Shown here one piece after another: positions 35,630-61,768 of a stretch of DNA of 64,000 nt. Made by a program: the position numbers and the translations under genes. Numbering within the stretch: position 1 is the first letter of the stretch; the number at the start of each line of letters is the position of its first letter. The DNA is from Bacteroidetes bacterium UKL13-3 (GTDB taxonomy: Bacteria > Bacteroidota > Bacteroidia > UKL13-3): NCBI GenBank assembly GCA_001602415.1, contig CP012155.1, positions 868,001-932,000 on the forward strand, written 5' to 3'. The notes under the pieces were generated by a model that was not told the origin of the DNA, searched no databases, and saw only the letters and a program-made list of their open reading frames with translations.

Positions 35630-35818
35630 GCGAACTCTAACCCTCCGCGTTTAAATATTTTCCTAGCGCCTTTGCGGTGAATAAATGTTCTCTGCGCTCA
35701 CTGCGCCTCCGCGTTTAAAACATTCTTAGCGTCTTAGCGGTGAATAACTACTCTGCGTATTCCGCGGTTCCGCGTTTAAATATTCCTCCTTGCGCCTTGG
35801 CGTCTTTGCGGTGAATAA
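35630..35818. repeat. Cluster of GCGCCTTTGCGGTGAATAAA repeats
   Basis: At least four degenerate units follow each other, each ending in 'gcggtgaataa' or 'cgcgtttaaa' (gcgcctttgcggtgaataaa, gcgtcttagcggtgaataac, cgtctttgcggtgaataaaa). It is the densest occurrence of the repeat family also found at 1303 and 1741. In the minus frame they read AKTPRRKEEYLN. Confidence 0.8.
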
Positions 35819-36581: not shown

Positions 36582-36650
36582 ATTGGTGTATATTATTCTA
36601 CAAAAATCCATTTTTAATATAGCGAATTTTCTTTTTTTTTTAGTCAAAAC

Positions 36651-37631
36651 GTATATCCGCAAATATACCACTCCGCAGATAGGATGCGAACAAAGGGCAG
36701 AACTTTGCAACATGAAATTAATAAACTTTATCAAACAATTTCCTGATGAGCAAAGTTGCAAGGAACATTTTAGGCTTAAACGCGAGCAAGAAGGTATCAG
36801 TTGTAAAGAGTGTGAATGTACAAAACATTATTGGCTAAAAGCTAAGTATCAATGGCAGTGCAGCCGCTGTGATTTTAGAACTACACTGCGTAGCGGAACA
36901 ATTATGGAGCATGCCAAATTACCTTTTCAAAAATGGTACATGGCGATGGCTTTTATGAGTTTAACTAAAAAAGGAATATCTGCAACGGAACTCCAAAAGC
37001 AAATGGATCACTCACGTTATGCAAGCATATGGAACTTGATGCATAAAATAAGAGAATCAATGGGTAAACGAGATTCTTTATATACACTTACAGGAATGAT
37101 AGAAATGGACGAGGGCTATTTTGAAAAAGCCACTCCTGAAGGAACAAAGTTAAAGCGAGGAAAAGGAAGCCAAAAGCAACAAAACGTAGCGGTTTTAGCA
37201 GAATCAACACCACTTGAAAATTTGGATACAGGTATTACATCGAAACATTGCAGGTACTTTAAGATGCAGGTTTTAAATAATCATAAGTCTGATGCAATCA
37301 ATAGCTTGTTCATTAACAACATTGAAGATAGCAGTATTGTATTTACCGATAAAAGCACGAGTTACGTAGATATTGCTGATTATGTTGAGGTTCATGTAAG
37401 TGAAGTATCAACTGAGATTACAACCAACACTACACTTAAATGGGTGCATATTGCAATTGCAAACGCCAAAAGAATGCTACTCGGAATTTATCACAAAATT
37501 AAAGGTCTATACCTGCAAAATTATCTCAACGAGTTTTGCTATAAACTCAATAGAAGATACTTTGGAGATAAACTCTTTGATAGACTAACTCTTGCCGTTG
37601 CTAAAACTTACTGGTAATATAGCGGATATAC
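36651..37631 (+). mobile_element. IS1595-family insertion sequence
   Basis: One intact transposase gene lies between imperfect inverted repeats: GTATATCCGC at 36651-36660 and its complement at 37622-37631, extending inward to 15 of 19 matches. T-rich tracts flank both ends. The outer limits and target duplication cannot be fixed by eye. A 10-bp direct repeat taatatagcg is at 36615-36624 and 37615-37624, so a fragment of another copy's right end may lie at the left border. Confidence 0.8.
36712..37617 (+). CDS. IS1595 family transposase (ISXO2-like)
   Basis: A 301-residue transposase. The N-terminal zinc ribbon has two CxxC pairs (CKEC...CSRC) spaced as in the family, in ISCKECECTKHYWLK and WQCSRCDFRTT. 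The catalytic domain contains MIEMDEGYFE (first Asp), SIVFTDKSTSY (second) and the C-terminal YLNEFCYKLNRRYFGDKLFD block typical of ISXO2-like enzymes. The ATG at 36712 is chosen; the longer ORF would include the inverted repeat. The gene is intact and probably active or recently active. It is oriented toward the giant gene. Confidence 0.92.
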   Translation: MKLINFIKQFPDEQSCKEHFRLKREQEGISCKECECTKHYWLKAKYQWQCSRCDFRTTLRSGTIMEHAKLPFQKWYMAMAFMSLTKKGISATELQKQMDHSRYASIWNLMHKIRESMGKRDSLYTLTGMIEMDEGYFEKATPEGTKLKRGKGSQKQQNVAVLAESTPLENLDTGITSKHCRYFKMQVLNNHKSDAINSLFINNIEDSSIVFTDKSTSYVDIADYVEVHVSEVSTEITTNTTLKWVHIAIANAKRMLLGIYHKIKGLYLQNYLNEFCYKLNRRYFGDKLFDRLTLAVAKTYW

Positions 37632-38041
37632 ATTTTTTTTTTTTAACCAAATCAATTTAAAGTTAAAAATAGCTCTATTTTTTACATTGAATGTGGGTAT
37701 GTTTTATGTTTATTTTATTGTAAGTAAATTATAATCAGTATTTTATATGTAATTTTCAAGATTAATATTTTTTTTATTTGTTTATAATCTACTAAATTAT
37801 ACATTGCGAAACGTTAATATTCTTTATCAATATACATAATAGAATCTATGAACAAACAACTCCCCAAATTTCAACTATTATTATCTTTTACGTTGCATCC
37901 TACCTTGTTTAAAGACCAGCAATTGGAATCGTCACATAGGTCTTCATTTCACATTCCCACTTTTATTTTAAGCAAGTTGCAAGCTTCACTTACTTTGGTG
38001 GTGTATTTTCTTTTTCAACTAAACTATAAATCAAATTAAAT
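37632..38041 (+). other. AT-rich leader of the giant gene
   Basis: About 410 bp, strongly AT-rich, with no terminator after the IS and no clear -7/-33 pair. It contains a short ORF, 37848-38039 (63 codons, MNKQLPKFQLLL...), that stops two bases before the start codon of the giant gene. It has no recognisable domain; it could be a leader peptide or chance. Confidence 0.4.
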
Positions 38042-50000: not shown

Positions 50001-53000
50001 TTGTAGCTAATGTTGGTTCAACAACCACAACTAACATCACCTCCAATTCTATATCTAATTTATTATCAACTTCCACTTCATCAAATAATTCAATAATTTC
50101 AAGCTCAAGTGGCAATATCACAATTGGAGGTTCTGCAATCGCAGGTAACACAATAGGGGGACTTATATCAGGAGATATTACTGCTTCAAACACTATAGAT
50201 GGTATTCTTTATACCGGAGCAGGAATAGTAAACATAAGCTTTAATACTATACAAAATATAACCTATGCTGACCCAGATTTTGAAAAACTGAGTGGAATTT
50301 TTGTGAGTAGTAATCAAACTTCCGCAATTGCATCTGCAGCTACTGCCACCATAACCAATAATACCATTTCTGGTTTAACTTACAATACATCTGCCACTAC
50401 AAATAGTGGGGTATTTTTCCCTTATGGAATATATATAAGTGTAAATACTTCTGGTAATAGTATAAGCAATAATCAAATATTTAATTACTCGCTTGCAAAT
50501 GCATCTGGTGGTCTTCCATTTTCTGGAATATTTGTTACTGGAACAACTGGTATTAATGTAAATGCAAATAGAATCTATGGTATTACAAGTGCAAGTACCC
50601 AAACCACCACCTCTGCACCAACCATTCGTGGTATTCAAATAGCAGGTGGCGCAGGAACTTATAGCAATAACCAAATTACTTTAAATACAAATACAGCATC
50701 AACACAGCCACTATTAAGAGGTATTGAGTTAATCGGAACCGGAGCAGTTAATGTGTTTTATAATTCCGTATTTATTGGTGGTAATGCTGCTGCTAATAAT
50801 AACACTTACGCTTATTTAAGAACTGCTAGTTCAGGAACACAAAATGTTCGTAATAACATTTTCTATAATAACCGCTCAGGATTGGGAAGTCATTATGCTA
50901 TTGGTTCAGTGGCGGGAACGGTTGTGGGTTTAACCAATACCAATAATTTCATGGTTGCGCCATCTGCAAATGCTATTGGAGAGGTTCCAACAGGAACTGC
51001 CAGAACCTTGGCAACATGGAATAGTAGCACAAATGGAAACACAACCAATCTTGCATATGACTCTTCAATTGTTACCTCTTCAGCGTTGTTTCCATCGTTT
51101 TCATCAGGTAACCTAACACCTAATTTGTGTTATGTTAACAATACCGGAACTCCAGTAACAACAACGGTTGATTTTGCAGGTAATACCAGAAGTACAACTA
51201 CACCTGATATTGGATCAGTTGAGTTTTCAACAGCTTCAGGATTTCCAAGTGTTACCACTCAACCGATAACTCCTGCTGTTGTATGCTCAGGAAATGGGGT
51301 TGCAACACTTACGGCCGTTGGGTCTGGCATCAATAATATTGTTACCTACAGGTGGCAGGTTCGTCCGGCTTCAACTTGGTTAACAATTGGGCAAGATTCT
51401 TCCGTTTACGCTGGTGCGGGAACAGGTACATTAACCATTACCAATCCATCTTCTGTTTATAATAACTATCAATACAGATGTATTGTAGGTGGTTCATGTT
51501 CGCCTGCCGATACAACTGTGGCAAGAACATTAACCATAAATCCGTTAATTGCATCCAATACAGTAACAAGCGCGCAATCAATTATAACAGGTCTAATACC
51601 ATCATCACTTACGGGTTCAACCCCAACAGGAGGCGATGGATCAACATATTCGTATCAGTGGCAAAGTAGCACAACCAGTGCAAGTGCAGGATTTACGGAT
51701 GCGAGTGGAACATCAACCACTCAAAATTACGCACCATCAGCATTAACAGCTACTACTTGGTACCGCAGAATTGCAAACTCAGGTGGATGTAGCGATACCT
51801 CATTGGCAATCCAAATAAGTGTGTTCCCAGTAATAACGGGCAATACAGTAAGCAGTAATCAAATCATTTGTAATGCAACAACACCTTCAGCTATAACGGG
51901 TTCAACACCGAGTGGCGGAAATGCATCATACAGTTACCAATGGATAGTGAGCACTACCAATGCTACAAGCGGTTTTAGTAATGCAACGGGTAAATCTACC
52001 AATCAGAATTACTCACCAGGATCATTAACTGCTACTGCATGGTACCGCAGGGTTGTAAGTTCGGTAGGAGGTATTGATACATCGGCAGTAATGCAGGTTG
52101 TTGTAAATCCGGTAATAGCAGACAATACAGCAACTGGAAAACAAACCATTTGTACAGGCAGCACAGCATTCGATATTATTGGTTCAACCCCAAAAGGTGG
52201 AACAGGAACCTACACGTATAGCTGGTTGAGTTCAACTACAAGTGCAACAGCAGGATTTGCTGCAATAAAAGGATCGAATACAACCATCAACTATGCACCG
52301 GGTATATTAACTGCTACCACATGGTACAGAAGATTAACCACATCAGGCGGTTGTACAGATACAAGTGCAGCGGTTGAAGTAACAGTAAACCCTGCGATAG
52401 CAGACAATACAGCAACTGGAAAACAAACCATTTGTTCTGGAAGCACAGCATCAAGTATTATTGGTTCAACCCCAACAGGTGGAACAGGAACCTACACGTA
52501 TAGCTGGTTGAGTTCAATTACAAGTGCAACAGCAGGATTTGCTGCAATAAAAGGATCGAATACAACCATCAACTATGCACCGGGTATATTAACTGCTACC
52601 ACATGGTACAGAAGATTAACCACATCAGGCGGTTGTACAGATACAAGTGCAGCGGTTGAAGTAACAGTAAACCCTGCGATAGCAGACAATACAGCAACTG
52701 GAAAACAAACCATTTGTTCTGGAAGCACAGCAGCAAGTATTATTGGTTCAACCCCAACAGGCGGAACAGGAACCTACACGTATAGCTGGTTGAGTTCAAT
52801 TACAAGTGCAACAGCAGGATTTGCTGCAATAAAAGGATCGAATACAACCATCAACTATGCACCGGGTATATTAACTGCTACCACATGGTACAGAAGATTA
52901 ACCACATCAGGCGGTTGTACAGATACAAGTGCAGCGGTTGAAGTAACAGTAAACCCTGCGATAGCAGACAATACAGCAACTGGAAAACAAACCATTTGTT

Positions 53001-56000
53001 CTGGAAGCACAGCATCAAGTATTATTGGTTCAACCCCAACAGGTGGAACAGGAACCTACACGTATAGCTGGTTGAGTTCAATTACAAGTGCAACAGCAGG
53101 ATTTGCTGCAATAAAAGGATCGAATACAACCATCAACTATGCACCGGGTATATTAACTGCTACCACATGGTACAGAAGATTAACCACGTCAGGCGGTTGT
53201 ACAGATACAAGTGCAGCGGTTGAAGTAACAGTAAACCCTGCGATAGCAGACAATACAGCAACTGGAAAACAAACCATTTGTTCTGGAAGCACAGCATCAA
53301 GTATTATTGGTTCAACCCCAACAGGTGGAACAGGAACCTACACGTATAGCTGGTTGAGTTCAACTACAAGTGCAACAGCAGGATTTGCTGCAATAAAAGG
53401 ATCGAATACAACCATCAACTATGCACCGGGTATATTAACTGCTACCACATGGTACAGAAGATTAACCACATCAGGCGGTTGTACAGATACAAGTGCAGCG
53501 GTTGAAGTAACAGTAAACCCTGCGATAGCAGACAATACAGCAACTGGAAAACAAACCATTTGTACAGGCAGCACAGCATCAAGTATTATTGGTTCAACCC
53601 CAACAGGTGGAACAGGAACATACACGTATAGCTGGTTGAGTTCAACTACAAGTGCAACAGCAGGATTTGCTGCAATAAAAGGATCGAATACAACCATCAA
53701 CTATGCACCGGGTATATTAACTGTTACCACATGGTACAGAAGATTAACCACGTCAGGCGGTTGTACAGATACAAGTGCAGCTGTTCAGATAACAGTAAAC
53801 CCTGCGATAGCAGGCAATACAGCAACTGGAACACAAACCATTTGTTCTGGAAGCACAGCAGCAAGTATTATTGGTTCAACCCCAACAGGCGGAACAGGAA
53901 CCTACACGTATAGCTGGTTACGTTCAATTACAAGTGCAACAGCAGGATTTGGTTTAGCAACAGGAACGAATACAACCATCAACTATGCACCGGGTATATT
54001 AATTGTTACCACATGGTACAGAAGATTAACCACATCAGGCGGTTGTACAGATACAAGTGCAGCTGTTCAGATAACAGTAAACCCTGCGATAGCAGGCAAT
54101 ACAGCAACTGGAACACAAACCATTTGTACAGGCAGCACAGCATTCGATATTATTGGTTCAGCCCCAACAGGCGGAACAGGAACATACACGTATAGCTGGT
54201 TGAGTTCAACTACAAGTGCAACAGCAGGATTTGGTTTAGCAACTGGAGTAACAACTTCTTCAATCTATTCTCCAGGAACAAGAACATCGACAACTTGGTT
54301 CAGACGCTTAGTTATATCAGGCGGTTGCACAGATACAAGTGCAGCTGTTCAGATAACAGTAAACCCTGCGATAGCAGGCAATACAGCAACTGGAACACAA
54401 ACCATTTGTACAGGCAGCACAGCATCAAGTATTATTGGTTCAACCCCAACAGGTGGAACAGGAACCTACACGTATAGCTGGTTGAGTTCAACTACAAGTG
54501 CAACAGCAGGATTTGCTGCAATAAAAGGATCGAATACAACCATCAACTATGCACCGGGTATATTAACTGCTACCACATGGTACAGAAGATTAACCACATC
54601 AGGCGGTTGTACAGATACAAGTGCAGCGGTTGAAGTAACAGTAAACCCTGCGATAGCAGACAATACAGCAACTGGAACACAAACCATTTGTACAGGCAGC
54701 ACAGCATCAAGTATTATTGGTTCAACCCCAACAGGTGGAACAGGAACCTACACGTATAGCTGGTTGAGTTCAACTACAAGTGCAACAGCAGGATTTGCTG
54801 CAATAAAAGGATCGAATACAACCATCAACTATGCACCGGGTATATTAACTGCTACCACATGGTACAGAAGATTAACCACATCAGGCGGTTGTACAGATAC
54901 AAGTGCAGCGGTTGAAGTAACAGTAAACCCTGCGATAGCAGACAATACAGCAACTGGAAAACAAACCATTTGTACAGGCAGCACAGCATCAAGTATTATT
55001 GGTTCAACCCCAACAGGTGGAACAGGAACATACACGTATAGCTGGTTGAGTTCAACTACAAGTGCAACAGCAGGATTTGCTGCAATAAAAGGATCGAATA
55101 CAACCATCAACTATGCACCGGGTATATTAACTGTTACCACATGGTACAGAAGATTAACCACGTCAGGCGGTTGTACAGATACAAGTGCAGCTGTTCAGAT
55201 AACAGTAAACCCTGCGATAGCAGGCAATACAGCAACTGGAACACAAACCATTTGTTCTGGAAGCACAGCAGCAAGTATTATTGGTTCAACCCCAACAGGC
55301 GGAACAGGAACCTACACGTATAGCTGGTTGAGTTCAACTACAAGCCCTTCAATAGGATTTACACTTGCAGCAGGAACAAACAATTCTAGTGATTACGCAC
55401 CACAGCCATTAACCCAAACAACATGGTTCCGTAGAGTTGTGAGTTCAGGAGTTTGCTCTGCAGATACTTCAGCTGCAATTGCAATATCAGTAAATCTAAA
55501 TATAACGGCTTCTGTTTCAGTATCTGCAACAGCAACTTCCGTTTGCGGTCCTGGTTCAATTACCTTTACTGCTTCACCAACAAATGGAGGAACCACACCT
55601 GCATACCAATGGAAATTAAATGGAGTAAATGCGGGGACTAACAGTAATACATATACCTTAACAACTCCTCTGGTAGATGACTCAGTTTATGCGGTATTAA
55701 CATCCAATGCAACACCATGTTTAGCCAATGTAACAGCAAACAGTAATGCTATAAAACTCACCAATTCTACCATAACGCCATCTGTTTCAATTTCAGTTCC
55801 TGATTCATTTATATGTTCAGGGAATTCAACAACATTCACTGCAATACCAACTAATGGAGGTAGTTCTCCTACATTCCAATGGAAAAAGAATGGAGTAAAT
55901 GTTGGAACTAATTTGAACACTTATACTGATAACAATTTATTAGCTGGAGACTCAATTGTTGTGGTACTTACTTCTAATGCGACTTGTTTGAGTTCAACGA

Positions 56001-59000
56001 CTGCTACAAGCAATTTCATCAGAATGAGTATTCGCATAGCAACTGCAATATCTGTTCATCCAGTTGGAATCAGCAGATGTATTGGTTCGTCAGCATCATT
56101 GAGTGTTTCGGCTATTGGAGATGGAGTTAGAACATATCAGTGGAGAAAAAATGGTGTTAATATTATAGGAGCAAATGCTGCATCATTCAATCTTCCGGCT
56201 GTGGCATTAATCGACTCGGGATCATATACAGTTATAGTTACTGCAAATTGTGGATCAGATACTTCATTGGTTGGCTATTTAACGATAACAGCACCTGTAA
56301 CTAATAACTCAATTTCTGGAACGCAGTCAATATGTTTTGGTAATTCGGTAAGTCAATTATCAGGTGCTTTACCTTCGGGTGGCAATGGTAACAACTACAG
56401 TTATTTGTGGCAATCGTCAACTATTAGCTCTTCCGCTGGATTTACGGCTGTGGCTGGAACAAATAATTCACTCAATTACAAGCCTAATTCACTTTCTCAA
56501 ACTACTTGGTTCAGAAGAGTGACTAGTTCTGGAGTTTGTACACCAGATACAAGTGCAGCGGTTGAAGTAACAGTAAACCCTGCGATAGCAGACAATACAG
56601 CAACTGGAAAACAAACCATTTGTACAGGCAGCACAGCATCAAGTATTATTGGTTCAACCCCAACAGGCGGAACAGGAACCTACACGTATAGTTGGTTGAG
56701 TTCAATTACAAGTGCAACAGCAGGATTTGCTGCAATAAAAGGATCGAATACAACCATCAACTATGCACCGGGTATATTAACTGCTACCACATGGTACAGA
56801 AGATTAACCACGTCAGGCGGTTGCACAGATACAAGTGCAGCTGTTCAGATAACAGTAAACCCTGCGATAGCAGACAATACAGCAACTGGAAAACAAACCA
56901 TTTGTACAGGCAGCACAGCATCAAGTATTATTGGTTCAACCCCAACAGGCGGAACAGGAACCTACACGTATAGCTGGTTGAGTTCAACTACAAGTGCAAC
57001 AGCAGGATTTGCTGCAATAAAAGGATCGAATACAACCATCAACTATGCACCAGGTATATTAACTGCTACCACATGGTACAGAAGATTAACCACGTCAGGC
57101 GGTTGTACAGATACAAGTGCAGCGGTTCAGATAACAGTAAACCCTGCGATAGCAGACAATACAGCAACTGGAAAACAAACCATTTGTTCTGGAAGCACAG
57201 CATCAAGTATTATTGGTTCAACCCCAACAGGTGGAACAGGAACATACACGTATAGCTGGTTACGTTCAATCACAAGTGCAACAGCAGGATTTGGTTTAGC
57301 AACAGGAACGAATACAACCATCAACTATGCACCGGGTATATTAATTGTTACCACATGGTACAGAAGATTAACCACATCAGGCGGTTGCACAGATACAAGT
57401 GCAGCTGTTCAGATAACAGTAAACCCTGCGATAGCAGGCAATACAGCAACTGGAACACAAACCATTTGTTCTGGCAGCACAGCATTCGATATTATTGGTT
57501 CAGCCCCAACAGGCGGAACAGGAACATACACGTATAGCTGGCTGAGTTCAACTACAAGTGCAACAGCAGGATTTGGTTTAGCAACTGGAGTAACAACTTC
57601 TTCAATCTATTCTCCAGGAACAAGAACATCGACAACTTGGTTCAGACGCTTAGTTATATCAGGCGGTTGCACAGATACAAGTGCAGCGGTTCAGATAACA
57701 GTAAACCCTGCGATAGCAGGCAATACAGCAACTGGAACACAAACCATTTGTACAGGCAGCACAGCATCAAGTATTATTGGTTCAACCCCAACAGGTGGAA
57801 CAGGAACATACACGTATAGCTGGTTGAGTTCAACTACAAGTGCAACAGCAGGATTTGCTGCAATAAAAGGATCGAATACAACCATCAACTATGCACCGGG
57901 TATATTAACTGCTACCACATGGTACAGAAGATTAACCACATCAGGCGGTTGTACAGATACAAGTGCAGCGGTTCAGATAACAGTAAACCCTGCGATAGCA
58001 GGCAATACAGCAACTGGAACACAAACCATTTGTACAGGCAGCACAGCATTCGATATTATTGGTTCAGCCCCAACAGGCGGAACAGGAACATACACGTATA
58101 GCTGGCTGAGTTCAACTACAAGTGCAACAGCAGGATTTGCTTTAGCAACTGGAACGAATACAACCATCAACTATGCACCGGGTATATTAACTGCTACCAC
58201 ATGGTACAGAAGATTAACCACATCAGGCGGTTGCACAGATACAAGTGCAGCTGTTCAGATAACAGTAAACCCTGCGATAGCAGGCAATACAGCAACTGGA
58301 ACACAAACCATTTGTTCTGGCAGCACAGCATTCGATATTATTGGTTCAGCCCCAACAGGCGGAACAGGAACATACACGTATAGCTGGCTGAGTTCAACTA
58401 CAAGTGCAACAGCAGGATTTGGTTTAGCAACTGGAGTAACAACTTCTTCAATCTATTCTCCAGGAACAAGAACATCGACAACTTGGTTCAGACGCTTAGT
58501 TATATCAGGCGGTTGCACAGATACAAGTGCAGCGGTTCAGATAACAGTAAACCCTGCGATAGCAGGCAATACAGCAACTGGAACACAAACCATTTGTACA
58601 GGCAGCACAGCATCAAGTATTATTGGTTCAACCCCAACAGGTGGAACAGGAACATACACGTATAGCTGGTTGAGTTCAACTACAAGTGCAACAGCAGGAT
58701 TTGCTGCAATAAAAGGATCGAATACAACCATCAACTATGCACCGGGTATATTAACTGCTACCACATGGTACAGAAGATTAACCACGTCAGGCGGTTGTAC
58801 AGATACAAGTGCAGCTGTTCAGATAACAGTAAACCCTGCGATAGCAGACAATACAGCAACTGGAAAACAAACCATTTGTACAGGCAGCACAGCATCAAGT
58901 ATTATTGGTTCAACCCCAACAGGTGGAACAGGAACGTATACGTATAGCTGGTTGAGTTCAATTACAAGTGCAACAGCAGGATTTGCTGCAATAAAAGGAA

Positions 59001-61768
59001 CGAATACAACCATCAACTATGCACCGGGTATATTAACTGCTACCACATGGTACAGAAGATTAACCACGTCAGGCGGTTGCACAGATACAAGTGCAGCTGT
59101 TCAGATAACAGTAAACCCTGCGATAGCAGACAATACAGCAACTGGAAAACAAACCATTTGTACAGGCAGCACAGCATTCGATATTATTGGTTCAACCCCA
59201 ACAGGTGGAACAGGAACATACACGTATAGCTGGCTGAGTTCAACTACAAGTGCAACAGCAGGATTTGGTTTAGCAACTGGAGTAACAACTTCTTCAATCT
59301 ATTCTCCAGGAACAAGAACATCGACAACTTGGTTCAGACGCTTAGTTATATCAGGCGGTTGCACAGATACAAGTGCAGCGGTTCAGATAACAGTAAACCC
59401 TGCGATAGCAGGCAATACAGCAACTGGAAAACAAACCATTTGTTCTGGAAGCACAGCATCAAGTATTATTGGTTCAACCCCAACAGGCGGAACAGGAACG
59501 TATACGTATAGCTGGTTACGTTCAATCACAAGTGCAACAGCAGGATTTGGTTTAGCAACAGGAACGAATACAACCATCAACTATGCACCGGGTATATTAA
59601 TTGTTACCACATGGTACAGAAGATTAACCACATCAGGCGGTTGTACAGATACAAGTGCAGCGGTTCAGATAACAGTAAACCCTGCGATAGCAGGCAATAC
59701 AGCAACTGGAACACAAACCATTTGTACAGGCAGCACAGCATTCGATATTATTGGTTCAGCCCCAACAGGCGGAACAGGAACATACACGTATAGCTGGCTG
59801 AGTTCAACTACAAGTGCAACAGCAGGATTTGCTTTAGCAACTGGAACGAATACAACCATCAACTATGCACCGGGTATATTAACTGCTACCACATGGTACA
59901 GAAGATTAACCACATCAGGCGGTTGTACAGATACAAGTGCAGCGGTTCAGGTAACAGTAACAAGTCCAATAGCAACAAACGTGGCAACGGGTAACCAAAC
60001 TATATGTACTAATTCAACACCATCTGTATTGTCGGGTTCAACAGCAACAGGTGGTAATGGCTCGGTTTACAATTACAGTTGGTTAAGCTCTACCACCAGT
60101 GCAACCGCAGGATTTGTATTAGCAGCAGGAACCAACAATTTGGTTAATTATACATCTTCGGCTTTAACTCAAACTACGTGGTTCAGAAGAGCAGTGTCAT
60201 CAGGAGCTTGTGCTATTGATACAAGTGTGGCTGTTCTAGTAACAGTAAATGCATCCGGAATTTGGACAGGATTGGTAAGTTCAGCATGGTCTAATACAGC
60301 AAACTGGAGTTGTCCGTTAGTTCCAACGTCAACAACAAATGTTACTATACCTTCATCAGGAGTTACCAGCATGCCATTTATAGCGGATGCACAACAAACA
60401 GCTAACCTCACTATTTTAGCAGGTGCAACACTTACCTTAAATGCGAGCTCGTCACAGTTGAGTATTTTCGGAACCACGACCAATAATGGAACGTTTAGCA
60501 ACACCAATGGGAAAGTGGTTTTTGCCGGAAGTGCAACCCAAATAGTACCTACAGGAACATATGCTAAATTGCAAATCAATAATGCTGCAAACGTAACATT
60601 GGCAGGTCCTGTTACAGTTAACGACTCGTTGATTTTGGTTAACGGTAGGGTAAATTTGGGAGCCAACAACCTCATATTAGGTGCTGCGTCATTTGCAACA
60701 TCAGGAAGCAGTAATAGCTATGTTTCAACAAATGGAACAGGAGCGGTTATTGTTCAGAATGTTGGTTCAACCGGAAAAACAGGATCTGTAATATTACCAA
60801 TAGGTAACAGTACATTTAATCCTGCCATCTTAGCAAATACAGGAACAACTGATACCTATACAGCGTGGGTTATTGATAGCGTTACGAATTCATATAGCGG
60901 TTCGGTGCCAACAGGCTTAAAGCTAACCACAGGTGCTGTTAACAGAACATGGATTATTAATGAAGGAGTAGCAGGAGGAAGCAATGCAACAGTTACGTTG
61001 CAATGGTTAGCAACTGACGAATTATCGGGCTTCACTAGAGGTGCATCATATGTTGGAAGGTATAACGGTGCAACATGGACAACCAATCTTATTGCAAATG
61101 CGGCATCGGGTTCAAATCCATACACGCAAACTCGTTCTGGTATTAATGCATTCTCTCCATTTGGAGTTGGAAGCAATGGAACGTTACCTGTTGAGATGTT
61201 GGGCTTCACAGCAAATAAACGCAAAGAAGCAGTGAAAGTAAATTGGGTAACTGCTAGTGAAATCAACAACGATCATTTCATCGTTCAACGTTCGGCTGAT
61301 GGAAAAACATTTGTTGATATTGCCAAGGTAAAAGGAAGTGGAACAACCAATATCCTTTCAAACTATCACCATGTTGATGAGAAAGCAACAGCATACGCAC
61401 AATCTGAAAATGTAACAATACTATATTACAGGTTGATGCAAGTTGATTACGACAATAGTACTGCTCATTCTGATGTTGTTGCCGTGAACATGGCCGTTGA
61501 AACAGATGAAATGCGAGTTGATGTTCATCCTAATCCGTTCACAGATATTACTGGATTAACGGTAAAAGTTATTGCCGATTCAAAATCAACAATTAAAGTA
61601 ACAGATGTTCAGGGACGCTTGGTGTTTGAAAAATCAGTAAACCTCGAACAAGGTACTAATACCATAATTATTGATGAATTGGCAGCTGATGCATACTCAG
61701 GCGTGTATTTTGTAACTGTTATCACACCAAACGAATCAATTGTGAAGCGAATTGTGAAAGGCAAATAG
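38042..61768 (+). CDS. Giant T9SS-secreted repeat protein, adhesin-like (7,908 residues)
   Basis: The protein has an extended signal peptide ending at LNTLHAQ. Residues about 40-965 form a beta-strand-rich region starting with a TWNQSGGGLWTTTTNW motif. Four beta-helix-type modules follow (about residues 968-1941, 1942-2664, 2665-3683 and 3684-4400), full of N-x-I/ITGNTIG turns and closing in PSIGAYE, DIGADAG or DIGSVEF. Then come an Ig-like domain, two diverged repeats, array 1 of 94-residue repeats (4690-5818), three Ig-like domains plus a hybrid repeat (5819-6179), array 2 (6180-7307), one diverged repeat, a second WxG...NW region (from about 7404) and a type A sorting domain (7826-7908, VHPNPF). 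It is Thr/Ser/Gly/Asn-rich with few charges. No enzyme motif was seen. Surface adhesion or gliding is inferred from architecture. The frame is unbroken over 23.7 kb and ends at a strong terminator. Confidence 0.93.
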   Translation: MNQIFTNQRYAKHTLSVLSKSISLKWAMVLLPFFLLNTLHAQTTYTWNQSGGGLWTTTTNWTPNGTPGANDTVIINPSVATPITAVPTGIILGAVRITSSAAVTTTFTASSVGTLNVVQFTIGGTTAANTCTFAFGALTTINIPTGGFFTVNQGGAFSGASAILFTLQSGATLNWARDGGTIPVAGYNANSTINVTGVTSTTVAATTSTWGNLIWNCPNQTVLGNLSSTITAIAGSVTFSNTGTGSFQWGAAPTTAVAGAMSVTNSTITVSGGTGVAYNGGLTLNSGGIINTTAASTFAVTGGNLTVNSGGTINNASATALTVNINGTNNLSVNSGGRVLATSTGTNTFVMNGTTQAITNNGIFTGLNNLTINGTTTLNSDLTVNNLTITSGPTGSLSVASTKTLTVNGTGGIATSSALNNNFLGGLGNVIFTSPINTLTIGGNGPAIQSGSATATIRNSGTITINSPNITLNGGLGQSTGTGFPASFTTGTVTCSTVGGTTITQNTSFFNLTGTTTITIPSGITATVISGGALVMANAASAITVAPTGTLQVNGTVTFGATATITGAGTFTLASGATLSTASTAGITQLTPTGSVQTTTRNYNSAANYNYTVATGNSGDGLPATLTGGTVTTSGATFTLTRTTTFNNLTVTASPFQVGAGITCTINGTYSAAGAFNMTGLGNFTAASGSTLILGSTSPSGVLQTGVAGNIQVSGARTYAPDVNITIAASANATGSGVGGFPSSIGRLTITSSANVTLLQATTVTGLSLQSAANLVTTTTNLLTVTGTANNSVSRTSTGFVNGPMARTFPTSFNTPGVYLFPIGKTASQNFELYNPTVNSSGSITIQVESFGTAPAGGTSSTGLTGSMSTRYWAVSAITGAGSLTGLSNIRVTESNWTTLQKLGLSTTLSGAYTSIGGYTSGNTLLSTSALNTTTISGGVFIGIANSSGLTAGFTAGTYAIGPGSYTGFAGTYTSIGAALQAMSGFSSLAGAVVLELQTDYVPTVETYPINIGNSLPTTLANNITIRPNSGVVVPIAFTSDGTNFANAGVFDFNGGKFVSLDGRPGGTGTSQMISVTNTGNGPAVRFINEAQNDTIRRVVLQSNNPLATTGVVFFSTAIASGTGNNSNGLDFCNINANGINPYGIISGGSSGTANEQNRLNTISNCNIYDFFSDVSSVGANVGIFLSTGSSAFTITGNSIYQTADRTFTNNINGHRGILINSIANNSGNFLITNNFIGGQAPSCGGVSMKYLTASSVISAATNSFFGMQIAQTATLGNTTSIQGNTIQNLRVDGIPASAGPYIFVGIICTAGDINAGTVTGNTIGSGTGTASITVNNNNSTFSAAVAGFDLRGLNTNLQNNTIGSITVSGTSTSAVSAQGISIGSGVTGTLTISGNTIGSGTATFGSGTANSINFTSANMPVQFTAISNAAIPATATPATPITNNIIANITSSSTHHTSFVRGILHSTGSISPAVITGNIVRNFSNANTFPFADNSLNQTSGININAASAVGHVVTNNQIHSLSNTNAASSTGVVGIFFNGTTGYNLISRNFIHSLSASGSQSSIRGIHNFGGNATIQNNMIRLGINPDGTNQTTDLDIQAVRTTSTAAVNLLNNSIYVGGTGVSGALNSFAYYRVGANTLQDSIFNNILVNERSNVSGTGIHFAAVFPAARTATNIISNYNIYRASGTGGALINTGNTFTTSLTFSQYQQSMATFTDLNSGVSTGADIIFTSAKTGRADGTGTNVSLALANPSAANGTGVVVSAMTEDFNGAANRTGVNGQATNIGASNTATSITASEDIFAPVITYPILANRGNANLSVTGITITDQGARIPGIANANRPRFYYRNVSTSSTWASVPASAISGNSYSFTIDYSLLTPTGANLGNTIQYYVVAQDAATAANLSSNPRAGFVGTDVNTVTTAPTTPNSFTIVPSLSGTVNIGGTAAALTGGATYATLTEAIGDMAGGQIIAIRRTNKGSGYTSAPTVVFTGGGGTGAAATAIFAGDSVVSILMTNYGSGYTSAPTISFTGGGGGTGAAGTAVLSGGYEISGATSFNLTSTYNSALENYPIVFPSLAPINANATNTLTIKPASGVTTTISGSVASNSLIRLNGASFLTIDGSNSAGTDRSLTITNASTTAPTAISLVSLGTAAGASNNTIRNCNISTGVNTTLGYGIAIGGATPGTAGSDNDFNVIQNNNITLAAVPIYAIGNASLSATGMDSITIIGNTTDVTTASSLAVIGIRVGNSLNSVITQNTVSAESNSTTSPVGISLETGFINSTVTRNTITKVLATNTGGYGGRGITIGTGTATSNLTISNNVLYGVNGSNWNAFAGSSSMGICIGTIGGSGTLTTTTGGVNLYNNSVNMTGSMGAGSTAATTAALYIGSGASALNIRNNSFVSTQVATNIGQKNYAIFSVAANTAFTNINNNSYFVSNTFNAASAIVGLISATDQSTLAAWRAASAQDANSISSDPLYNAATNLRPQLSSPLIGAGTPISGITTDFLGVTRSGTTPSIGAYENGVDLNPPVITYTNLSTFTSSTTNRVLSATILDSSGVSLSGALMPRIYFRKNSNAWFSDAGALSSGTSKNGTWTFTINATTLSGVTAADTIAYYVIAQDIAATPNVTSVPTTGLVATDVNTVTTPPTSPNVYYVVPSLSGTVNIGGNGTGPSIGNTYASLTEAFGDLSVGRVRAIRVTAGGSGYTSAPTVVFTGGGGTGAAATARFNGSGALSSIVMTNYGSGYTSAPTIAITGGGGGTGATATAILSAGQELTGATTFSLTSTYNTTDTVEAYPIVIPSLTNNGGSTTNTITIMPASGVATSSISGSSTTSSIIDFNGGSNVIIDGRAGGTGPIVLTIENTSATAGASTVRFINEASRDTVRFCNVLGSGTGATTGTILISTTTGANGNDNIGITDCNITNSGANLPINGIFNQGTTTTNATFNNGLFVNNNNISNYFNATAASTGIQCQTGTGENIITNNRFFQTATRTNTTAAVHRAIWVTPNSGVLTTGSSNVITGNYIGGNAADGTGTYTITGATTHTFLGMDFSVGFAASTSVQNNTITNINFNTASTSAQAFTGIVIANGNVNVGNSTANTIGSTTTNGAITFTTSGNIGGVTGINIIGGATSVDTIQNNIVSGIDINGSTVSVCNSFNGIVSTTPATVLITGNTIGSGTLANSINVVTASTSGSICPMRGIQTTGGTNVTISNNLIANLTTNLAATGTQASTLTGIASSGTTPNTTITGNTIRNLSTAAQVTNNGVASSALLGISVSTSAGTANVTNNTVHSLLLSGAATTGTVTATGIIFSGTAGTVSKNIIHSIDLTAVNNAAVISGIVQSTGTATYSNNMIRLGIKPDGTDLTTGALISGITKSNATNNNFFFNSVYIGGANVVSSTNTFAFRRISTGTDSLYNNILVNERSNASGSGKNYAIVLNATTTMRSDYNIFRASGTGAVFSSLNGGTNDSTSFQSYRVGLGLTQDMNSGVGNPNFANATGNASAVNLKVSGTTPAEGVGFPIASITDDREGDIRSSNTPTDIGADAGNYTASDIYTPIITYTNLVNSGSTSNRTLVATLTDVGTGVSSARVWFRRSAPSATAWASVAGSLSAGTANNGTWSFTIDYSQLSLTPVAGEVYQYYVVAQDGAGSPNIWYQPVAGALHSDVSTQTTAPTTPSNYTILSPLGSTTFTVGSGGTYPTLTGSGGLFEAINAASLAGNSTAQIISDITEPGTVPLTNAGMSGFTLTITPDASLRTLSAGITTAMIDINGAQGVIIDGGASKNLVLRNAIGSTPDATVGATIQFRGGASNDTLRNCIVEGNASTATIGTVMFGTGVNSNIVLTRNRIRSANASITNLPANALYSNTATNSRLFIGSADAADSNMIHDFTNAGILFSSVGDSIRIRNNQLFERVGVAAHTYVSIGTGNAHTVSNNSIYQVGGVAHSGTITGISVTGSGNGHTIDANSIGGSNIARGGTPLSTTGTVTIIVANVGSTTTTNITSNSISNLLSTSTSSNNSIISSSSGNITIGGSAIAGNTIGGLISGDITASNTIDGILYTGAGIVNISFNTIQNITYADPDFEKLSGIFVSSNQTSAIASAATATITNNTISGLTYNTSATTNSGVFFPYGIYISVNTSGNSISNNQIFNYSLANASGGLPFSGIFVTGTTGINVNANRIYGITSASTQTTTSAPTIRGIQIAGGAGTYSNNQITLNTNTASTQPLLRGIELIGTGAVNVFYNSVFIGGNAAANNNTYAYLRTASSGTQNVRNNIFYNNRSGLGSHYAIGSVAGTVVGLTNTNNFMVAPSANAIGEVPTGTARTLATWNSSTNGNTTNLAYDSSIVTSSALFPSFSSGNLTPNLCYVNNTGTPVTTTVDFAGNTRSTTTPDIGSVEFSTASGFPSVTTQPITPAVVCSGNGVATLTAVGSGINNIVTYRWQVRPASTWLTIGQDSSVYAGAGTGTLTITNPSSVYNNYQYRCIVGGSCSPADTTVARTLTINPLIASNTVTSAQSIITGLIPSSLTGSTPTGGDGSTYSYQWQSSTTSASAGFTDASGTSTTQNYAPSALTATTWYRRIANSGGCSDTSLAIQISVFPVITGNTVSSNQIICNATTPSAITGSTPSGGNASYSYQWIVSTTNATSGFSNATGKSTNQNYSPGSLTATAWYRRVVSSVGGIDTSAVMQVVVNPVIADNTATGKQTICTGSTAFDIIGSTPKGGTGTYTYSWLSSTTSATAGFAAIKGSNTTINYAPGILTATTWYRRLTTSGGCTDTSAAVEVTVNPAIADNTATGKQTICSGSTASSIIGSTPTGGTGTYTYSWLSSITSATAGFAAIKGSNTTINYAPGILTATTWYRRLTTSGGCTDTSAAVEVTVNPAIADNTATGKQTICSGSTAASIIGSTPTGGTGTYTYSWLSSITSATAGFAAIKGSNTTINYAPGILTATTWYRRLTTSGGCTDTSAAVEVTVNPAIADNTATGKQTICSGSTASSIIGSTPTGGTGTYTYSWLSSITSATAGFAAIKGSNTTINYAPGILTATTWYRRLTTSGGCTDTSAAVEVTVNPAIADNTATGKQTICSGSTASSIIGSTPTGGTGTYTYSWLSSTTSATAGFAAIKGSNTTINYAPGILTATTWYRRLTTSGGCTDTSAAVEVTVNPAIADNTATGKQTICTGSTASSIIGSTPTGGTGTYTYSWLSSTTSATAGFAAIKGSNTTINYAPGILTVTTWYRRLTTSGGCTDTSAAVQITVNPAIAGNTATGTQTICSGSTAASIIGSTPTGGTGTYTYSWLRSITSATAGFGLATGTNTTINYAPGILIVTTWYRRLTTSGGCTDTSAAVQITVNPAIAGNTATGTQTICTGSTAFDIIGSAPTGGTGTYTYSWLSSTTSATAGFGLATGVTTSSIYSPGTRTSTTWFRRLVISGGCTDTSAAVQITVNPAIAGNTATGTQTICTGSTASSIIGSTPTGGTGTYTYSWLSSTTSATAGFAAIKGSNTTINYAPGILTATTWYRRLTTSGGCTDTSAAVEVTVNPAIADNTATGTQTICTGSTASSIIGSTPTGGTGTYTYSWLSSTTSATAGFAAIKGSNTTINYAPGILTATTWYRRLTTSGGCTDTSAAVEVTVNPAIADNTATGKQTICTGSTASSIIGSTPTGGTGTYTYSWLSSTTSATAGFAAIKGSNTTINYAPGILTVTTWYRRLTTSGGCTDTSAAVQITVNPAIAGNTATGTQTICSGSTAASIIGSTPTGGTGTYTYSWLSSTTSPSIGFTLAAGTNNSSDYAPQPLTQTTWFRRVVSSGVCSADTSAAIAISVNLNITASVSVSATATSVCGPGSITFTASPTNGGTTPAYQWKLNGVNAGTNSNTYTLTTPLVDDSVYAVLTSNATPCLANVTANSNAIKLTNSTITPSVSISVPDSFICSGNSTTFTAIPTNGGSSPTFQWKKNGVNVGTNLNTYTDNNLLAGDSIVVVLTSNATCLSSTTATSNFIRMSIRIATAISVHPVGISRCIGSSASLSVSAIGDGVRTYQWRKNGVNIIGANAASFNLPAVALIDSGSYTVIVTANCGSDTSLVGYLTITAPVTNNSISGTQSICFGNSVSQLSGALPSGGNGNNYSYLWQSSTISSSAGFTAVAGTNNSLNYKPNSLSQTTWFRRVTSSGVCTPDTSAAVEVTVNPAIADNTATGKQTICTGSTASSIIGSTPTGGTGTYTYSWLSSITSATAGFAAIKGSNTTINYAPGILTATTWYRRLTTSGGCTDTSAAVQITVNPAIADNTATGKQTICTGSTASSIIGSTPTGGTGTYTYSWLSSTTSATAGFAAIKGSNTTINYAPGILTATTWYRRLTTSGGCTDTSAAVQITVNPAIADNTATGKQTICSGSTASSIIGSTPTGGTGTYTYSWLRSITSATAGFGLATGTNTTINYAPGILIVTTWYRRLTTSGGCTDTSAAVQITVNPAIAGNTATGTQTICSGSTAFDIIGSAPTGGTGTYTYSWLSSTTSATAGFGLATGVTTSSIYSPGTRTSTTWFRRLVISGGCTDTSAAVQITVNPAIAGNTATGTQTICTGSTASSIIGSTPTGGTGTYTYSWLSSTTSATAGFAAIKGSNTTINYAPGILTATTWYRRLTTSGGCTDTSAAVQITVNPAIAGNTATGTQTICTGSTAFDIIGSAPTGGTGTYTYSWLSSTTSATAGFALATGTNTTINYAPGILTATTWYRRLTTSGGCTDTSAAVQITVNPAIAGNTATGTQTICSGSTAFDIIGSAPTGGTGTYTYSWLSSTTSATAGFGLATGVTTSSIYSPGTRTSTTWFRRLVISGGCTDTSAAVQITVNPAIAGNTATGTQTICTGSTASSIIGSTPTGGTGTYTYSWLSSTTSATAGFAAIKGSNTTINYAPGILTATTWYRRLTTSGGCTDTSAAVQITVNPAIADNTATGKQTICTGSTASSIIGSTPTGGTGTYTYSWLSSITSATAGFAAIKGTNTTINYAPGILTATTWYRRLTTSGGCTDTSAAVQITVNPAIADNTATGKQTICTGSTAFDIIGSTPTGGTGTYTYSWLSSTTSATAGFGLATGVTTSSIYSPGTRTSTTWFRRLVISGGCTDTSAAVQITVNPAIAGNTATGKQTICSGSTASSIIGSTPTGGTGTYTYSWLRSITSATAGFGLATGTNTTINYAPGILIVTTWYRRLTTSGGCTDTSAAVQITVNPAIAGNTATGTQTICTGSTAFDIIGSAPTGGTGTYTYSWLSSTTSATAGFALATGTNTTINYAPGILTATTWYRRLTTSGGCTDTSAAVQVTVTSPIATNVATGNQTICTNSTPSVLSGSTATGGNGSVYNYSWLSSTTSATAGFVLAAGTNNLVNYTSSALTQTTWFRRAVSSGACAIDTSVAVLVTVNASGIWTGLVSSAWSNTANWSCPLVPTSTTNVTIPSSGVTSMPFIADAQQTANLTILAGATLTLNASSSQLSIFGTTTNNGTFSNTNGKVVFAGSATQIVPTGTYAKLQINNAANVTLAGPVTVNDSLILVNGRVNLGANNLILGAASFATSGSSNSYVSTNGTGAVIVQNVGSTGKTGSVILPIGNSTFNPAILANTGTTDTYTAWVIDSVTNSYSGSVPTGLKLTTGAVNRTWIINEGVAGGSNATVTLQWLATDELSGFTRGASYVGRYNGATWTTNLIANAASGSNPYTQTRSGINAFSPFGVGSNGTLPVEMLGFTANKRKEAVKVNWVTASEINNDHFIVQRSADGKTFVDIAKVKGSGTTNILSNYHHVDEKATAYAQSENVTILYYRLMQVDYDNSTAHSDVVAVNMAVETDEMRVDVHPNPFTDITGLTVKVIADSKSTIKVTDVQGRLVFEKSVNLEQGTNTIIIDELAADAYSGVYFVTVITPNESIVKRIVKGK
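43973..44180 (+). repeat. GSGYTSAPT motif pair in module B
   Basis: GSGYTSAPTVVFTGGGGTGA and, about 35 residues later, GSGYTSAPTISFTGGGGGTG form a two-copy glycine-rich repeat. An equivalent pair is at 46142-46351 in module C. Confidence 0.8.
46142..46351 (+). repeat. GSGYTSAPT motif pair in module C
   Basis: GSGYTSAPTVVFTGGGGTGA and GSGYTSAPTIAITGGGGGTG, at the same spacing and phase as in module B, set at the start of a beta-helix. Confidence 0.8.
52109..55495 (+). repeat. Tandem array 1: twelve 94-residue (282-bp) repeats
   Basis: Units start every 282 bp from 52109; the twelfth has one extra codon and a diverged second half. Consensus landmarks: PAIADNTATGKQTICSGSTA, GGTGTYTYSWLSS, TTWYRRLTTSGGCTDTSAAV. 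Variants occur at fixed places (D/G, K/T, SSII/ASII/FDII, AAIKG/GLATG). A block of about 640 bp at 53291-53928 is repeated, identical by eye, at 54701-55338 (offset 1,410 bp = 5 units). Units look like extracellular Ig/PKD-type domains of Bacteroidota adhesins. Confidence 0.95.
56579..59962 (+). repeat. Tandem array 2: twelve 94-residue (282-bp) repeats
   Basis: Twelve units, all exactly 282 bp, of the same repeat as array 1. Nearly all end in VQITVN, whereas array 1 begins with VEVTVN units. A variant with GVTTSSIYSPGTRTSTTWFRR recurs as units 4, 7 and 10, so a three-unit (846-bp) period is visible; units 6 and 12 match at an offset of 1,692 bp. The variant also occurs once in array 1 (unit 8). 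Confidence 0.95.

Follow-up and report, generated by a model that had tools for sequence, protein, structure and literature searches.

How two arrays of 282-bp repeats within one giant gene came to be, and whether exchange between the repeats could still change the length of the encoded protein, is the question raised by this locus. The window (the whole stretch of DNA analyzed, 64,000 nucleotides) contains a single open frame of 7,908 aa at positions 38042-61768, on the forward strand like all features of the gene given below, and this frame holds both arrays of Ig-like units. From the N terminus, its order is a leader, Ser/Thr/Asn-rich repeats, the two Ig arrays, a C-terminal module and a type IX secretion system (T9SS) sorting domain. 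The part before the arrays (∼4,500 aa) consists of Ser/Thr/Asn-rich repeats that look beta-helix-like by eye; it gave no Pfam match above cut-off and a single NCBIfam match (choice-of-anchor Q), with a score just over its cut-off. The C-terminal module (60245-61768), with 44-60% amino acid identity in relatives, ends in a type A sorting domain (TIGR04183: 47.8 bits, cut-off 23; PF18962: 34.8, cut-off 27), the C-terminal signature by which type A cargo of the T9SS is recognized. The genome also encodes a full SprA and has ∼100 sorting-domain matches in total. The initial annotation had taken the product for a surface protein, a view backed by the above-cut-off sorting domain and by the full SprA, and a surface location via the T9SS is predicted. 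Most likely, the protein serves as a T9SS-secreted stalk whose length would be open to change by recombination because its units are near-identical. We consider it likely that the arrays are the stalk of this giant surface protein and that they have undergone concerted evolution via homologous recombination between units.

To define the units, the array region was cut at the W[FY]RR anchor, giving 28 units of 282 bp (94 aa) each: 14 Ig-like units in array 1 (A01-A14; 51542-55489) and 14 in array 2 (B01-B14; 56291-60244). Homogenized 282-bp units make up the core of each array, with 11 in array 1 (A03-A13; 52106-55207) and 12 in array 2 (B02-B13; 56576-59959), where a GVTTSS cassette occurs in B05, B08 and B11. 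Pairs of core units differed at 0-57 of 282 bases, mostly at <25. Differences from the core were far more numerous in the edge units: at least 113 of 282 bases in A01 and A02 (together 51542-52105, clustering with units of other species), B01 (56291-56572) and B14 (59963-60244). The chimeric edge unit A14 (55208-55489) differed from the core at 70-86 bases, because it is core-like in its 5′ half only and diverged in its 3′ half. Between the arrays lies a single-copy spacer (55490-56290) with three other Ig-like domains (Ig_3 and Ig_7 above cut-off). The arrays are longer than the extent first proposed for them, 52109-59962, with diverged units flanking the core on both sides of each array (in A14 the 3′ half), and part of that interval is the non-repetitive spacer. 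No further copies of the window repeat that might act as conversion donors were found elsewhere in its own genome.

Within the arrays, exact repeats extended well beyond single units. In array 1, a 632-bp exact repeat (53288-53919 and 54698-55329) was found at an offset of 1,410 bp, or five units, with its second copy terminating within A14; allowing 2 mismatches, it extends to 640 bp, which confirms the block of ∼640 bp reported initially at this five-unit offset. In array 2, a 591-bp exact repeat (57349-57939 and 58195-58785) was found at an offset of 846 bp (three units) and a 321-bp exact repeat (57913-58233 and 59605-59925) at an offset of 1,692 bp (six units); an additional 223 bp matched at the latter offset, where a six-unit match had been claimed. 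The third longest match, after those of 632 and 591 bp, was an exact one of 387 bp at an offset of 564 bp. Over the full 282 bp, no base differs between B05 and B08 or between A08 and A13, and the adjacent units A04-A07 of array 1 differ by 1-3 bases. When unit order was shuffled within each array, a match as long as the longest one observed arose in 0.55% of array 1 trials (P = 0.0055) and in 0 of 2,000 array 2 trials; the higher-order copies are therefore real. A three-unit period of the GVTTSS variant in array 2, also proposed at the outset, held as a block copy at an 846-bp offset (cassette in B05, B08 and B11) but not as a property of the whole array: a global period of three was rejected in favor of local block duplication, as lag-3 similarity was not significant (P = 0.15).

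Tandem repeats are a known cause of assembly errors (PMC6868369), and drafts of relatives often stop inside such genes, so an assembly artefact, in which units were in part misjoined or collapsed, has to be weighed. Against it, the source genome forms a single contig of 3.24 Mb with 99.96% completeness, the reading frame stays open through all 28 units, and diverged units mark the ends of the arrays; we regard such an artefact as a very improbable source of the patterns described here.

Recombination within units was evident from the 23 core units, which had 71 variable sites, 63 of them informative, with 537 of 1,953 site pairs incompatible with one tree. Neighboring sites agreed far more than shuffled ones (PHI: 0 of 1,000), at least 12 breakpoints were required (Rmin = 12), and shared runs were longer than expected from column shuffling in 86 of 240 unit pairs (P ≤ 0.002). 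Independent drift of all units, which would have spoken against gene conversion, is excluded. The clearest recombination tract is the GVTTSS...WF cassette (codons 51-82): compared to standard units, units with this cassette showed a dS of ∼0.94 within it and of 0.15-0.18 in the remainder (rough values, as the stretches are short), with amino acid identities of 0.47 in the cassette and 0.91 in its flanks. The same style of cassette was found in foreign units of three other species (G016, G064 and G066; ASGVNIGSSYNPGVRTTTTWFKR and relatives), and therefore both cassette types predate the amplification. Judged by these divergences, the cassette is much older than the surrounding frame, which points to replacement of partial tracts, beyond mere duplication.

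These results bear directly on the simplest alternative, plain recent tandem duplication, in which blocks were doubled a few times and then drifted without conversion. Block copies do exist, and A04-A07 are as close as recent doublings should be. Nevertheless, a cassette of such synonymous divergence in flanks of so little is impossible by whole-unit copying plus drift, and the mosaic signal within units (PHI and Rmin above) contradicts plain duplication, so that breakpoints inside units are needed; we consider this alternative very unlikely. A further possibility is that strong purifying selection keeps the frame identical while diversifying selection varies the cassettes, all without recombination. 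In its favor, differences in the cassette block between A04 and A09 (AAIKG vs GLATG units) were all nonsynonymous (dN 0.14, dS 0). However, the frame is near-identical at synonymous sites too (A08 vs B06: dS 0.02-0.04), there are entire units with the same DNA sequence, an outcome that protein-level selection does not give, and the high synonymous divergence among core units that selection alone would leave was not seen, while units of relatives are still recognizable at ∼60% nucleotide identity. Selection acting alone is thus hardly credible. A role for selection alongside recombination is easier to imagine, though still doubtful: the gene would then act as an intragenic cassette-shuffling system, in which old, trans-species cassettes covering a portion of the Ig domain may be kept by selection in an otherwise homogenized array and reassorted by recombination within and between arrays, which would change the surface (e.g., against phages or grazers) in addition to protein length. 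Taken as a whole, the original proposal of higher-order duplication with recombinational exchange is strongly supported by the exact repeats, the shuffled arrays and the mosaicism of units.

Exchange was also proposed across arrays, from a shared order of LRSITS, GVTTSS and AAIKG units. This order is common to A09-A11 and B04-B06, two stretches of 846 bp that differ at 15 positions, and its occurrence in both arrays was unexpected under shuffled order (P = 0.016), so that the proposal is moderately supported; core units of both arrays were also members of a single clade. Exact matches, however, reached 173 bp across arrays compared to 632 bp within an array, and the nearest neighbor was found in the same array for 19.5 of the 23 core units (P = 0.003). 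The EV variant of the EV/QI marker at the unit end was present in 7 of 11 units of array 1 and in 0 of 12 of array 2 (P = 0.0013). Mean distances over whole arrays did not differ significantly across and within arrays (P = 0.098). Judging from the sequences, exchange across arrays happened, but was rarer or older than exchange within them, a difference that had escaped the initial annotation. As crossing-over from one array to the other would have removed the spacer or left two of them, and a single spacer is found, the cross-array transfer was probably by noncrossover conversion; alternatively, the likeness could stem from a duplication preceding the spacer or from a transient double event. 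Events within an array fit crossover and conversion alike, and the two cannot be separated.

To place the amplification in time, a tree was built from the window units and units from the genes of ∼20 relatives. The 23 core units formed their own clade, exclusive to the source genome (support 0.94), while A01, A02, B01 and B14 fell outside it, among units of other species. Relatives encode similar giant proteins of 5,000-8,700 aa, in which neighboring units mostly share ∼60% nucleotide identity. Together with the clade restricted to core units, this indicates that the amplification is recent and particular to the source lineage. Since the arrays of relatives are mostly diverged, rapid turnover does not hold throughout the family, with the proviso that in relatives sequenced with short reads the gene often runs into a contig end, biasing the sample, so homogenized arrays were possibly missed. 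In a related gene from another genus (G020), the part before the arrays was 41% identical over 2,009 aa and the C-terminal module 60% identical over 326 aa, and 2 + 1 units were detected compared to 28 in the window, in a draft whose contig ends inside the gene. Homogenized arrays of 228-240 bp were found at other Bacteroidota loci (e.g., L137, 12.6 copies at 90%), so homogenization as such is common; of all arrays compared, the window alone had exact matches of at least 300 bp at multi-unit offsets. Three Flavobacterium loci (L119, L137 and L144) carried long homogenized arrays of 12-27 copies with units of 228-231 bp, and in L119 a two-unit period outscored the single-unit period in TRF. Two loci of another genome (L068 and L069 of G021), ∼410 kb apart, had unit arrays that were near-identical pairwise (mean best match 0.87-0.95 amino acid identity), which suggests segmental duplication or exchange between genes.

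The sequence shows the following history of the arrays. Once the source lineage had diverged from the sampled relatives, a single type of unit was amplified to the 23 core units of both arrays. Blocks (five units in array 1, three in array 2) were copied recently enough to leave identity over ∼600 bp, presumably when units mispaired and underwent slippage or unequal crossing-over. Recombination inside units gave rise to mosaics, including a cassette far older than its surroundings, and exchange within arrays is more recent than exchange between them, the latter probably by noncrossover gene conversion. The arrays can thus be read as a sequence record of stalk renewal, with lineage-specific amplification, block copying, a homogenized frame and surviving older cassettes. 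If unit number varies in the population, the distance of the N-terminal part from the cell would change by what is termed the "Periscope" mechanism, and recombination would be able to tune how far the cell surface of an environmental bacterium reaches. Frequent changes in copy number, as anticipated in the initial annotation, would be expected from such DNA. A somewhat unlikely alternative is that past recombination shaped the arrays and that unit number is now fixed, with no regulatory role. As arrays have diverged in most relatives, homogenization can evidently stop; yet the exact repeats of ∼600 bp persist, far above what homologous recombination needs, which is only a few tens of bases. 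Among known Periscope Proteins, moreover, the greatest variation in repeat number accompanies the highest repeat identity (PMC8201768).

The 94-aa unit is confidently predicted to have an Ig fold. A single unit modelled with AlphaFold2 (pLDDT 94) aligned best to a CD22 Ig domain in VIA-align 2 (Z 10.7, rmsd 2.0, 85 residues), with domains of GhpA from Aureispira close behind (Z 9.5, rmsd 2.2, 81 residues, 21% identity); Foldseek with the modelled unit returned nothing below an E-value of 0.001. Against Pfam Ig_7 (PF19081), a single unit scored 21.3, below the cut-off of 27.3, while one spacer domain passed with 31.4. GhpA, the grappling hook of Aureispira (PDB 9flp, 9fls, 9fly and others), is likewise a giant Ig-domain bacterial surface protein, although the likeness to the unit (Z ∼9-9.5, 18-25% identity) is one of the fold of single domains only. 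SprB is a large, repetitive, T9SS-secreted surface adhesin, and the giant protein resembles adhesins of this type in being large, repetitive and (as predicted) T9SS-secreted. It differs from them in its type A sorting domain and in that the SprB repeat model (PF13573) matched 3 of 29 aligned units at E ≤ 0.01, with no match for the window reference unit.

Closer parallels are found among Periscope Proteins, defined by tandem repeats of >50 residues with ≥80% identity (PMC8201768), a length and identity also found in the 94-aa core units. For members such as SasG, Rib, Sgo_0707 and CdrA, stalk length altered by recombination has been proposed (PMC8201768, PMC9704523). Shared with these are tandem folded domains in a long (here predicted) surface protein, with near-identical coding DNA as a substrate for intragenic recombination; the giant protein differs in its T9SS sorting domain, in having two arrays and a spacer in one gene, and in its mosaic cassettes. 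Periscope Proteins vary in repeat number, whereas the giant gene is known here from one genome. Their folded repeats build an elongated rod that projects a distal ligand-binding domain; in the giant protein, single units are confidently predicted Ig folds, and the ∼4,500 aa ahead of the arrays matched no functional domain in Pfam. In the searched text of PMC8201768 and PMC9704523, Bacteroidetes go unmentioned, as does type IX secretion in that of the review. The giant genes of Apilactobacillus (Gram-positive) encode surface proteins of 3,000-8,000 aa diversified by intragenic recombination, but their repeats are highly imperfect, unlike the window units, and no recent gene conversion is reported between giant genes of one cluster (PMC12863079). 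In the open-access literature, no direct precedent was found for bacterial surface genes with higher-order repeats, which does not prove their absence. The giant gene is best described as a well-documented further example of known length-variable bacterial stalk proteins, without being a new type of system, and would widen the Periscope concept to include a giant protein bearing a T9SS sorting domain.

The giant gene lies upstream of sufB, a place occupied differently in relatives. In G001, the one further species sampled from the genus, this place is on an intact 130-kb contig and holds two small ORFs, with neither a giant gene nor another T9SS protein upstream of sufB. Five other relatives (G003, G009, G020, G058 and G066) encode a T9SS protein of ∼1,160-1,210 aa immediately upstream of sufB (in G009 with two small genes between). 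Compared to the 7,908-aa gene of the window, these arrangements show that T9SS proteins vary at the site before sufB (35871-63624). Some 425 bp upstream of the giant gene lies an IS1595-type transposase gene (36583-37617), for which imperfect inverted ends were recognized by eye near 36647-36669 and 37615-37634; four further near-identical copies (99-100%) of this element are present in the genome, and it may have an effect on expression of the giant gene. A degenerate 61-bp tandem repeat of 2.2 copies (CCTCCGCGTTTAAATA...) was found in an intergenic region at 35642-35782.
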